Of a DNA stretch of 64,000 bases, positions 39,313-62,498 are shown piece after piece. Below the pieces are notes generated by a model. That model saw nothing but the letters and a program-made list of their open reading frames with translations. It was not told the DNA's origin and did not search any database. A program made the position numbers and the translations under genes. Source of the DNA: Mycolicibacterium neworleansense (lineage in GTDB: Bacteria > Actinomycetota > Actinomycetes > Mycobacteriales > Mycobacteriaceae). Positions within the stretch are counted from its first letter, which is position 1; every line of letters begins with the position of its first letter. Location: NCBI RefSeq assembly GCF_001245615.1, contig NZ_CWKH01000003.1, positions 1,138,572 to 1,202,571 on the forward strand, read 5' to 3'.

Positions 39313-40578
39313 ATGTTCGACTGGCCGAAAGGATCCACGCGGTTGCTTCTGGCCCTGGTGCTGCTGGCCGTCGTCCTGGTGTTCGCGCTGGCGCGGCCCG
39401 AGGGCTGGCCCGAGGCCGTCGTGGCGCTCCCGGCGGCCGGGCTGCTGATCGTCGTCGGCGTCATCTCGCCGGACGATGCCCTGGCCGAGGTGAATCGCCT
39501 GCTGCCCGTGGTCGGGTTCCTGGCGGCCGTGCTGGTGCTGGCCCACCTGTGCGACGACGAGGGCCTGTTCCACGCCGCGGGCACGCTGATGGCCCGTGCC
39601 AGCCACGGTGATCCGCGCCGGCTGCTGACGAAGGTGTTTGTGATCGGCGCGACGACGACGGCGGTGCTGAGCCTCGATGCCACCGTGGTGCTGCTGACCC
39701 CGGTGGTGCTGGCCACCGCCCGCACACTGTCGATCGCGCCGCGACCGCATGCCTATGCCAGCGCGCATCTGGCCAACTCCGCGTCGCTGCTGTTTCCGGT
39801 CTCGAACCTGACGAACCTGTTGGCCTTCGCCGTGGCCGGCTTGTCGTTCACTCAGTTCAGCGCGGTGATGGCCCTGCCGTGGCTGGCCGGTATCGCGGTC
39901 GAATTCGTCTTGCTGCGACTGCTTTTCCGAGGCGAGCTGAGCCGCCCGGCCACCGAGGTGGCGCCGCCGCCGCCCGAGATTCCGGTGTTCGTGCTCGTGG
40001 TGCTGGGATTGACGCTGGCAGGTTTCGTGGCGACCTCGGTATTCGATGTGTCCCCGGCCTGGGCCGCCCTGGCCGGTGCGCTGGTCCTCGGGGTGCGCAG
40101 TCTGGCCCAGCGGCGCAGCACGATCGGCGGCATCGCACGCGCAGTCAACGTGCCGTTCCTGGCGTTCGTACTGTGCCTGGGTGTCGTGGTCGACGCGGTC
40201 GTGCAGAACGGCCTCGGCGACGCCATGCGCGGGGTGCTCCCGGTCGGCGACTCGCTGCCCGCACTACTGGGTTTCGCCGCCGTGGCGGCCGTGCTGGCCA
40301 ATCTGGTGAACAATCTGCCCGCCGTGCTGGTGCTCCTGCCGCTGGTGGTGGCGTCCGGGCCCGGGGCGGTGCTGGCCGTGCTGATCGGGGTCAACGTCGG
40401 CCCCAACCTGACCTATATCGGCTCGTTGTCGAACCTGCTGTGGCGCAATGTGGTTCATCGCGAAGGCGTGCCGGCTCGGTTCACCGAGTTCAGCCGGGTG
40501 GGGCTGGTGACCACGCCGCTCACCCTGGTGGCCGCCGTGGCGGCTCTTTGGGTCAGCTTGCGTGTCCTCGGGGGTTAG
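39313..40578 (+). CDS. arsB2: ArsB/NhaD-superfamily transporter (ArsB2-like)
   Basis: This 421-residue integral membrane protein with about 11 hydrophobic segments belongs to the ion-transporter superfamily of arsenite/anion exporters. [18 protein letters not shown] and [12 protein letters not shown] are typical half-site repeats. Rv3578 (arsB2) has the same neighbours. Substrate specificity cannot be read from sequence. The ATG at 39313 is used; the frame extends to 39103 but would overlap the divergent GDPD gene. Confidence 0.85.
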
Positions 40579-56380: not shown

Positions 56381-57362
56381 TTATTCCGCGGTGGCTGCGG
56401 CCTTGGCCAGATCCGGACCGTCGGAGCCGGCCGCCTTGGGCGCACCGGAGAACGTGAACTTCGCGTCCTCGCCGGCGCCTTCGCCGTCCCAGCCCTCGAC
56501 ATCGACCGTCACCAGCTGACCGGGGCCGAGCTCTTCGAAGAGGATCTTCTCCGACAGCTGGTCCTCGATCTCGCGCTGGATGGTGCGCCGCAGCGGGCGG
56601 GCACCCAGCACCGGATCGAAGCCACGCTTGGCCAGCAGGGCCTTGGCCTTGTCGGTCAGCTCCATGGCCATGTCCTTGGCCTTGAGCTGGTTGCCGACCC
56701 GGCCGATCATCAGGTCGACCATCTGGATGATCTCGTCCTGCGTCAGCTGGTGGAACACGATGATGTCATCGATGCGGTTGAGGAACTCAGGCCGGAAGTG
56801 CTTCTTGAGCTCGTCGTTGACCTTCTGCTTCATCCGCTCGTAGTTGTTCTCGCCACCACCCTGGCTGAAGCCCAGTCCGACAGCCTTGCTGATGTCGGAA
56901 GTGCCCAGGTTGGAGGTGAAGATCAACACCGTGTTCTTGAAGTCGACCGTGCGGCCCTGACCGTCGGTGAGACGGCCGTCCTCCAGGACCTGCAACAGGC
57001 TGTTGTAGATCTCCTGGTGGGCCTTCTCGATCTCGTCGAACAGCACGACGGAGAACGGCTTGCGGCGCACCTTCTCGGTGAGCTGGCCGCCCTCTTCGTA
57101 GCCGACGTATCCCGGAGGGGCACCGAACAGCCGCGACGCGGTGAAGCGGTCGTGGAACTCACCCATGTCGATCTGGATGAGCGCGTCGTCGTCACCGAAC
57201 AGGAAGTTGGCCAGCGCCTTGGACAACTCGGTCTTACCGACACCGGACGGGCCGGCGAAGATGAACGAGCCCGACGGACGCTTCGGGTCCTTCAGACCGG
57301 CGCGGGTGCGGCGGATCGCCTTGGAGACGGCCTTGACGGCATCCTCCTGGCCGATGATCCGC
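56381..57362 (-). pseudogene. clpC1: clpC1, 5'-truncated: only about 326 C-terminal residues remain
   Basis: The frame encodes the second AAA+ domain (D2) of ClpC1 from RIIGQEDAVKAVSKAIRR onward, with Walker A GPSGVGKT, Walker B VVLFDEIEKA, sensor FTSNLGTSD and C-terminal RTIQREIEDQL. ClpC1 is normally about 848 residues and essential in mycobacteria; its N-terminal and D1 domains and the spacer are absent. The first residues of the open frame before Arg-Ile-Ile are lsr2-derived sequence in another frame. The D2 part itself is intact to its terminator. Deletion or misassembly is the likely cause. Confidence 0.85.
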
Positions 57363-57549
57363 GCCGGCGCCCGCCGACCCGGCGTCCGGCCTCGACCCAC
57401 TGCTTCAGATCGTTACGGAGCTTGGTGGCATTCTTGGAGGAAAGGTCGATCTCATAGGTGACGCCGTCGAGGCCGAATTCAACGGTCTCATCAGCGGTTG
57501 CTTCACCGTCGAAATCGTCGACCAACGTGACGGTCACTTTCTTCGCCAT
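57292..57549 (-). pseudogene. lsr2: lsr2, 3'-truncated: DNA-binding domain replaced by a frameshifted tail
   Basis: The reading frame starts as a normal Lsr2 (MAKKVTVTLVDDFDG, ETVEFGLDGVTYEIDL, WVEAGRRVGGRRRG) for about 64 residues, the dimerisation domain. It then runs about 21 codons in a frame of clpC1-derived sequence and stops. The C-terminal DNA-binding domain with its RGR motif is missing; normal Lsr2 is about 112 residues. The protein could dimerise but should not bind AT-rich DNA. The normal order clpC1 then lsr2 is conserved in mycobacteria, so the join occurs between correct neighbours. Confidence 0.85.
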
Positions 57550-57680: not shown

Positions 57681-59204
57681 TCAGCTACTGTGACGACGAA
57701 CAATCGGGAACAAAACAGTCTCCCGAATAGACAACCCCGTCAACGCCATCAACAACCGATCGATACCCATTCCGGTACCAGTGGTCGGTGGCATCGCGTA
57801 CTCCAATGCGGCGAGGAAATCGTCGTCGAGAACCATTGCTTCGTCATCGCCTGCGGCGGCGGCGCGAGCCTGGGCTTCGAACCGCTCCCGCTGGATTACC
57901 GGGTCGACGAGTTCGGAATATCCCGTGGCCAGTTCGAAACGCCGAATGTAGAGGTCCCATTTCTCGGTCACGCCCGGAATGCTGCGGTGAGCCCGGGTCA
58001 GCGGTGAGGTCTCCACCGGGAAGTCGCGCACGAACGTCGGCGCCCACAGCTTCTCGCCCACGGAGTGTTCCCAGAGTTCTTCGACCAATTTTCCGTGCCC
58101 ATAGCCACGGTCACGCGGAATCTCAAGCTCGAGCCCCTCGGCAATACGCCACAAGTACTCAACTGATGTGTCGGGCGTGATCTCCTCACCGAGCGCCTCG
58201 GACAACGAAGGATACATTTCCAATGTGTCCCATTGCCCGTCGAGATCGTAGATAGTGCCATCAGGCAATGGCACCTGACGGGTTCCGATCGCCTCGTCGG
58301 CAACTTCTTGAATAAGTTCGCGCGTGACTACCGCGGAATCGTTGTAGTCACCGTAGGCCTGATATGTCTCCAACATCGAGAATTCCGGCGAGTGCGTGGA
58401 ATCGACACCTTCGTTGCGAAAGTTCCGATTCAACTCGAAAACCCGGTCAAATCCACCGACGATGCAACGTTTGAGGAACAGTTCCGGTGCGATGCGCAGG
58501 TACAGATCGACGTCGAGCGCATTGGAATGGGTGATGAACGGCCGGGCCGCGGCCCCGCCGGCCAATGTCTGCAGCATCGGCGTCTCGACCTCGAGGAAAC
58601 CGCGCCGTTCCAGTGCCGAACGCACGGCCCGCACGACGGCGACCCGCTGCCGCGCGATGCTGCGCGCCTCGGGCCGCACGATGAGATCGACGTAGCGCTG
58701 ACGCACTCGGGTTTCTTCGCTCATTTCCTTGTGAGCAACCGGAAGCGGCCGCAATGCCTTGGCCGCCATCTGCCACGAATCGGCGAGCACCGAGAGCTCA
58801 CCGCGCTTGGAGCTGATCACCTCGCCGTGGACGAAGACGATGTCGCCGAGGTCGACGTCGGCCTTCCACGCATCGAGGGACTCCTGGCCCACCTGGGCCA
58901 GGCTGATCATTGCCTGCAACTGGGTGCCGTCGCCCTCCTGCAACGTCGCGAAGCACAACTTGCCGGAATTCCGGGCAAACACCACCCGGCCCGAGACGCC
59001 GACCATCTCGCCGGTCTGGGTGTCGGCGGCCAGGTCCGGGTGGGCGCTGCGAAGCTCGGCAAGCGTGTGCGTGCGCGGGACGGTTACCGGATAGGGCTCG
59101 CGCCCCTCGGCCAGCAGCCGTTCCCGCTTGGCCTGACGAATCCGGAACTGCTCGGGCAGGTCGGCCTGGGACTGGGACGCGTCATCGCGATCGGCTGGGC
59201 TCAC
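57681..59204 (-). CDS. lysS: Lysyl-tRNA synthetase (class II)
   Basis: This 507-residue class II enzyme has an N-terminal OB-fold domain ([16 protein letters not shown]) and a class II catalytic core with motif 2 [11 protein letters not shown] and motif 3 [13 protein letters not shown]. It charges tRNA-Lys. GTG 59204 gives the family-typical length (505 in M. tuberculosis); the open frame extends to 59279. It lies upstream of lsr2 as in other mycobacteria. Confidence 0.96.
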
Positions 59205-59227
59205 AGAATGCCAGCTTAAATGAACAC

Positions 59228-60466
59228 GTGAGCGCACAATTGCACGCCGACAAGCTGGCCGCCCTCGACCACGAGCCACTCGACTGGCGGTTCAAGGGCA
59301 TCCCCGCGACCTGGTGGGGGCAGACTGCGGCGCAGGTCAGCTCATCGCGCCCGGCTTTCTTCGACGACGGACCGTCGGGTCCCTCAGGTCCGGTATGCGT
59401 TCTGCGGGAATCCGCGCTTGTGCACAACCTCACAACAATGGCGAATTGGTGTACCGACCGCGGCGTCGAATTGGCGCCGCACGGCAAGACCCATATGGCC
59501 CCGCAGCTGCTGGCCCGCCAATTCGGGGCGGGTGCATGCGCCGTCACCGCCGCGACCATCAGCCAGGTCCGGGTCTTCCGGGCATTCGGTGCCCGCGACG
59601 TGGTGCTGGCCAACGAGGTCGTCGACCTCGCGGGCCTGGCCTGGCTGGCGGCCGAACTCGATGCGGATCCGGACTTTCACGCGGTGTGCTGGGTCGATTC
59701 TCCTGCCGGGGTCGAATTGATGACGGCGGGGCTGGCCGGGGCGCGGCGGCGGCTCGATGTGTGTGTCGAGGTCGGGATGGCCGGTGGCCGGACCGGCTGC
59801 CGCACCGACGCCGAGATCGATGCCGTGGCCCGCGCAGTGGCCGCGAGTCCACGGCTGCGGCTGGTCGGGGTGGCCGGCTATGAGGCGTCCACCGGACAGG
59901 ATGTGAGCCCGGATGCCGTCGACGGGGTGCGGGCCTATCTTCGGGACATGCGGGCCGCGACTGTACGGCTGGCGCATTTGTTCGAGGCCGACACCGTGAT
60001 CGTCACCGCCGGCGGCAGTACCTATCCCGATGCGGTCGCCGACGAACTCGCCGGCGGCTGGCCGGCCGGGATGTCGGTGCGCACGATCCTGCGCAGCGGG
60101 TGCTACCTGACCCACGACAACGGCCTCTATGCCCGGACCTCACCGCTTGAGCTGCGGCCCGCCCTGCAGGTGTGGGCGCAGGTGGCGTCGCGGCCCGAAC
60201 CCGGACTGGCGCTGGTGACGATGGGCCGTCGTGACGTGTCCTTCGATGCCGGGCTGCCGGTGCCGCTGAGCCTGCCAGGCAGTTCGGTGGTCAGACTCAA
60301 CGACCAGCACGCCTTCGTTGAACTGGGCGACGAGGATCAGGCGCCGGTGGGAGCGTGGCTGCCGTTCGGAATCTCGCACCCGTGCACGACGTTCGACAAG
60401 TGGCAGCTGATCCCGGTGCTCGACGACGAAGACCGGGTCATCTCATTGGTGCGGACGTTCTTCTGA
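59228..60466 (+). CDS. PLP-dependent alanine-racemase-fold protein, D-threonine aldolase / D-serine dehydratase-like
   Basis: This 412-residue fold-type III PLP enzyme has the PLP-lysine in [14 protein letters not shown], a VAGYEASTG motif and a C-terminal metal-binding part with [14 protein letters not shown]. The family includes D-threonine aldolase and metal-dependent D-serine dehydratase. The exact substrate is unknown. The start is GTG 59228. It is divergent from lysS and ends directly at coaX. Function in D-amino-acid catabolism is inferred. Confidence 0.85.
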
Positions 60467-61698: not shown

Positions 61699-62498
61699 CA
61701 GTTCCTCCAGGGCAGTTCATGGTTGTCGCCGTCGCCGACGCGGGGGTGTCCGTCGATGCCCGCGGATGCTCCGATGTCGACGGAGATGTTGTCCAGCAGA
61801 CGAGTTCGGCCCAGCCGGGCGGCGTACTTGCCGGCCAGCAGCGCCGCCGACAGCGCGCCCGCCTGTTCACGCTCGTCGGCGTCGAGATAGCGGTTACGCG
61901 ACGACATCGCCAGGCCGTCGGACTCCCGGACGATGGGAACCCCGACGATCTGCACGTCGATGTTGAGATCGGCGACCATCTGCCGGATCAGGGCCAGTTG
62001 CTGATAGTCCTTCTCACCGAAGAAGGCCCGGTCCGGCCGGACGATCTGGAGCAGCTTGAGCACGACCGTGAGCACCCCGGCGAAATGACCTGGGCGCGAG
62101 GCCCCTTCGAGTTCGCCACCGACCGGTCCGGGCTGCACGCTGGTGCGCGGCCCGTCCGGGTACATCGCCGAACCGGTTGGGGTGAAGGCGATCTCGACCC
62201 CTTCGGCGCGCAGCGCGGCCAGGTCCTCGTCCAACGTGCGCGGGTAGGCGTCGAGATCTTCTCCCGCGCCGAACTGCAGCGGATTGACGAAGATCGACAC
62301 CACCACGACCGCACCGGGAACCCGCTTGGCCGCACGGATCAGCGTCAGGTGACCCTCGTGCAGCGCACCCATGGTGGGTACCAAGGTGACCCGGCGCCCG
62401 CTGGTTCGCAGGGCGCGGGTGACCGCTGCGACATCGGCGGGTGCCGAGTAGACGTTCAGCTCGCCTGCGACGAACTTCGGTGGGTTGCTGTGGGTCAT
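61698..62498 (-). CDS. panC: Pantothenate synthetase PanC with a 43-48 residue internal deletion
   Basis: The frame is open for 266 codons, but M. tuberculosis PanC has 309. The ATP-binding MGALHEGH (residues 43-50), [24 protein letters not shown] and MSSRNRYL are intact. From [11 protein letters not shown] the sequence jumps to [12 protein letters not shown], omitting the segment that normally has a DYLELRD-type strand of the C-terminal lid domain. The reading frame is unbroken. Whether this is a real shortened enzyme, a pseudogene or an assembly collapse is open; the ATG at 62498 overlaps the upstream gene. Confidence 0.85.

Follow-up and report, generated by a model that had tools for sequence, protein, structure and literature searches.

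The genes clpC1, lsr2 and lysS are drawn together in a figure legend of PMC10066036, and the usual mycobacterial locus, for example that of M. peregrinum 852002-51209 (L140), reads lysS-lsr2-clpC1. In PMC10433963 ClpC1 is described as essential to the viability of mycobacteria, and PMC9067928 lists both ClpX and ClpC1 as essential chaperones of M. tuberculosis. According to PMC10066036, neither M. smegmatis nor M. abscessus requires lsr2, and disrupting the gene makes M. smegmatis resistant to phage. The M. smegmatis mutants of that study have lost the DNA-binding end of Lsr2, as has the locus described here; however, in the mutants lsr2 alone is affected, whereas here clpC1 is affected too. 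A further gene that bears on the present case is menA: inhibitors of MenA are reported in PMC6305584 to stop both M. tuberculosis and M. smegmatis from growing.

The window analysed here is a stretch of 64,000 bases (C3:1138572-1202571) from the M. neworleansense assembly, which consists of 6,287,317 bases on 9 contigs. Its lysS-lsr2-clpC1 region resembles the usual locus in gene order and strand, and shares with it lysS, the opening 62-63 codons of lsr2 and the clpC1 segment that stretches from residue 517 to the stop, but 1,994 bases are gone and both lsr2 and clpC1 are incomplete (Table 1). Read on the minus strand from 57549, the Lsr2 sequence (MAKKVTVTLVDD...GGRRR) passes into the ClpC1 frame at RIIGQEDAV. 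The original prediction, made from the sequence, was of just such an out-of-frame switch, and comparison of the reading frames bears it out; the site was right, although the exact span is 57358-57362 instead of 57359-57362 and the Lsr2 part ends at codon 62-63 or so instead of about 64. Past the join, the Lsr2 frame continues with about 21 foreign residues before it meets a stop at 57292; the ClpC1 frame stays open over 326 residues and ends with its stop at 56381. The missing length is 1,994 bases against both of the relatives G020 and G021 (a subject gap of 1,989 plus an overlap of 5), in keeping with the 2-kb scale that had been proposed. The lost segment comprises the remainder of lsr2, the spacer between the two genes and the first 516 of the 842 clpC1 codons; by alignment to the relatives, 516 ClpC1 residues are absent and not the predicted 510 or so. 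A short sequence shared at the join had also been foreseen, as the four bases CCGC; the two alignments overlap by five bases with G020 and G021 alike, the relatives serving as stand-ins for the strain's own lost sequence.

Table 1. Features of the lsr2-clpC1 join and its neighbourhood (positions in the window)
Feature	Position	Strand	Basis or remark
lsr2 remnant, codons 1 to ~62-63, N-terminal part	57363..57549	-	PF11774 match
Join, 5 bases common to lsr2-side and clpC1-side alignments	57358..57362	-	alignments to relatives
clpC1 remnant, residues 517-842 of 842, second AAA+ ring (D2)	56381..57361	-	open to stop
85-aa chimeric ORF, Lsr2 head and out-of-frame clpC1 tail	57292..57549	-	ORF list
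339-aa mechanical ORF containing the ClpC1 D2 remnant, GTG start	56381..57400	-	ORF list
lysS (lysine--tRNA ligase), intact upstream neighbour	57681..59279	-	anchors usual lysS-lsr2-clpC1 order

The two remnants retain recognizable domains. The Lsr2 N-terminal domain (PF11774) is matched with 101.3 bits at C3:1195944-1196120; the C-terminal DNA-binding domain is absent from the locus, the frame being switched at the join, and the lost DNA finds no lsr2 match elsewhere in the genome. On the other side, the Clp_N repeats and the first AAA+ ring of ClpC1 are absent here and only residues 516/517-842 match, a second AAA+ ring of 326 residues that shows 97.9% identity to the G020 protein and 99.7% to that of G021. 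The 339-aa ORF that contains this ring starts at a GTG within lsr2, in another frame; its translation is hypothetical, and all of its NCBIfam Clp ATPase matches fall below the cut-off.

A join query of 801 bases was used to compare the locus with 24 genomes of the same genus, 16 genomes of the same order being left out of the tally. In 22 of the 24, the lsr2 and clpC1 parts lie 1.93-2.05 kb apart on one contig. The two others are incomplete: G003 (72% complete) yields only the lsr2 part with this query, near a contig end, and a search with the lost DNA finds a piece of clpC1 at the end of that same contig; in G008 (70% complete) neither part is matched. None of the 24 carries the fusion, nor does any of the 80 named lysS loci kept from 544 confirmed with LysS, of which 73 have full lsr2 and full clpC1, two have them nearly full and five are cut by the end of the locus or contig (L140 and G021 are probably not independent of each other). 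The join is more than chance: the relatives hold both parts as separate, intact genes. By LysS, the nearest named relatives are M. septicum and M. peregrinum DSM 43271 (97%), followed by M. porcinum, M. houstonense and others (96%). The exact 33-base join has no match in genome_contigs, a collection that may omit the present genome or one very near it. The 85-aa chimera forms a cluster with one member on one contig, the present one, and its tail is shared by none of the sequences inspected (14 with the chimera included, among the 120 listed of 1,254 matches). One protein that is 83% identical over 99% of the chimera (P0002) was considered as a second instance of the fusion and rejected, as its tail is different. 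Among the literature matches listed, in the portions of text they gave, there was nothing on the present case of clpC1 and lsr2 loss or misassembly in mycobacteria.

A second intact clpC1 or lsr2, which the prediction had raised as a way for a true deletion to be tolerated, was not found in the searchable assembly. The sole Lsr2 match is the truncated one. For clpC1, three kinds of query were used (the Clp_N profile, full ClpC1 and the lost DNA); the inspected sequence is that of the assembly apart from six short contigs, which by subtraction total 6,043 bases. The Clp_N profile matches only a putative ClpB-like protein, so named here from its two Clp_N repeats and its length, and two short proteins. 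The full G021 ClpC1 finds the remnant, the ClpB-like protein, the short proteins and one 34% match that we take to be ClpX. With the lost DNA as query, the ClpB-like gene is the sole match in this genome, and 23 of the 24 other genomes give matches, G008 being the exception. The two short proteins with Clp_N repeats are distinct from the ClpB-like protein and lie at C1:1800964-1801425 and C2:1858-2415. The latter, near the start of C2, was tried as the lost end of clpC1 and rejected, being a short frame of 221 aa.

The surroundings of this 221-aa frame revealed a second damaged gene. menA, encoding 1,4-dihydroxy-2-naphthoate polyprenyltransferase (C2:1436-1806; L039, L008), lacks about 0.5 kb of its interior and has its frame broken, jumping from residue ~101 to residue ~253 at C2:1726-1728. 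No other menA copy was found in the assembly, and the lost piece, present in 14 of the 15 same-genus relatives searched, has no match in the present genome. The menA loss is probably the same kind of artefact as the clpC1/lsr2 join. A third lesion affects panC, whose 3' part is short by about 144 bases against G021 and 142 against G020 (window 61809-61823). Its frame remains open despite the loss, so the panC change may be real, or it too is an artefact. The alignments overlap by 5 bases at clpC1, by about 5 at panC and by almost none at menA; with so little at menA, a general microhomology rule across the lesions was rejected.

Neither the clpC1 nor the lsr2 remnant shows decay. Compared with the two relatives, ClpC1 D2 has 15 private synonymous changes and no private amino-acid change, where 47.7 would be expected had it been neutral throughout, and its dN/dS is 0.02 to G021 and 0.06 to G020. 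The Lsr2 head has 8 private synonymous and no private amino-acid changes, the menA head 9 and one; three-state codons were set aside (5 in ClpC1 D2, 3 in Lsr2 and 0 in menA), and there is no private residue among them. Because ClpC1 D2 has no private amino-acid change against an expectation of 47.7, a real loss of clpC1, if any, would have to fall within about the last 6% of the branch (3/47.7). The remnants look like genes under purifying selection, and a very recent real deletion would look alike.

In other respects the assembly looks good, with 100% completeness and 0.07% contamination, and there are no N bases in the window or in the 25 long stretches of the assembly that were checked. The count of clean deletions seen against both relatives is 6 in the present genome (G000), 12 in G020 and 3 in G021, by a filter that missed menA because its right-hand match is short. 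Broken ORFs amount to 15/403 and 14/392 in the present genome and to 4/362 and 7/376 in the controls, counts that include edge effects and are partly due to the ends of the compared stretches or of contig C2; in a two-way test over 0.56 Mb the figure is 31/465, against 30/479 in the reverse comparison. The idea that the assembly is broadly broken is thus unsupported by the clean-deletion and two-way counts, and the case accordingly rests on which genes are affected. A difference of 2,016 bases against G021 at window 54623 was dropped, since it is not shared with G020. On its lsr2 side the join abuts the Lsr2 linker; there the GC fraction of 50-base windows rises to 0.84 in G021 and 0.86 in G020, the 99th percentile of such windows in the G020 stretch being 0.82. 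At the menA site the GC content is not extreme.

We consider the lsr2-clpC1 fusion to be an assembly artefact, a misjoin or dropped gap, with a probability of about 0.88. This is the best reading because the loss of clpC1 together with that of menA is not credible in a cultured strain; the independent loss of two such genes, each leaving an undecayed remnant, points to an assembly error. Two marks of a misjoin were observed, namely that the fused structure is absent from close relatives and that searches of the assembly gave no intact copy. The locus also resembles a misjoin or collapsed gap in its gap-free contig, the abrupt loss within conserved genes, the short overlap, the undecayed remnants and the presence of a further instance (menA) elsewhere in the assembly; it differs in that broken ORFs, by the two-way test, are not generally commoner here than in a relative. 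In this process a segment of roughly 1,994 bases, reaching from the Lsr2 linker to the border of clpC1 D1 and D2, would have been dropped from the assembly and the two ends then joined with a few bases of overlap, presumably beside the GC-rich stretch. By itself the 5-base overlap is weak evidence, as a real microhomology deletion and an overlap join made by the assembler would account for it equally well. Most likely the living strain carries an ordinary lysS-lsr2-clpC1 locus. The original prediction had left the choice between deletion and misjoin open; the misjoin is retained, and a true short-homology deletion is disfavoured by the reported essentiality of ClpC1, the undecayed remnants and the gutted menA. 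Such an artefact is a warning, in that an assembly scored as 100% complete shows no intact clpC1, lsr2 or menA and calls of gene absence from it are unsafe. A real loss would conflict with the reports that ClpC1, which is a drug target, is essential.

It is unlikely that a real and very recent short-homology deletion is present in all or part of the culture, sustained by intact unsequenced cells or by a copy missing from the assembly. End-joining repair, or phage selection for the loss of lsr2, could have given rise to it. The clean join with its 5-base overlap, the reports that lsr2 is dispensable and its disruption protective against phage in M. smegmatis (PMC10066036), and the lack of decay, which also fits a very young event, are all consistent with such a deletion, and the six short contigs may harbour pieces of the lost segment. 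However, the same event takes 516 ClpC1 residues, no intact clpC1 was found, and an independent lesion in menA is needed as well. Contigs C4-C6 measure 1,020-1,168 bases. Provided that none of the last three exceeds the sixth (1,020 bases), which the ordering of C1-C6 by length suggests, no short contig could accommodate a gene of 2.5 kb.

A fixed deletion, with the strain living without the N-domain and D1 of ClpC1 and without the DNA-binding domain of Lsr2, is very improbable. In that case the D2 remnant may be expressed from a start site within the gene and act as a one-ring unfoldase; its frame is open, it has no private amino-acid change against the two relatives, and a GTG-started ORF spans it. 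Use of that GTG, however, is hypothetical, menA is left unexplained, and ClpC1 is reported as essential (PMC10433963; for M. tuberculosis, PMC9067928); if the deletion were fixed, ClpC1 would not be universally essential in mycobacteria. That the fusion is normal for the lineage and common to relatives, which the prediction had named as a possible refutation, is scarcely credible, given its absence from all 24 same-genus genomes and 80 named loci, the lack of an exact join match in genome_contigs, and a chimera that is alone in its cluster with a tail unshared among the listed matches inspected.

Other differences were noted in the genome. About 49 kb (C3:814484-863627; L105-L108) lie inside pstA, the phosphate transporter permease gene, which is whole in G020. 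The insert has 5 target bases at both ends and is a probable mobile island. Within it are a region 74% similar to the pst region of G020 and genes for an alkylmercury lyase (MerB) domain protein, a P-type ATPase, a TIR-domain protein and an ApeA-like HEPN protein, with large ORFs lacking a Pfam match at one end. At C3:1136819, outside the window, there is a clean difference of 561 bases against G021 with a 3-base overlap, which is not listed as shared with G020. Within the window, at about 39364-40569, a G021 ORF for an ArsB-like transporter (538 aa) matches only from residue 146, the ArsB profile on that ORF beginning at residue 130, and the match is directly preceded by 1,089 bases that are absent from G021.
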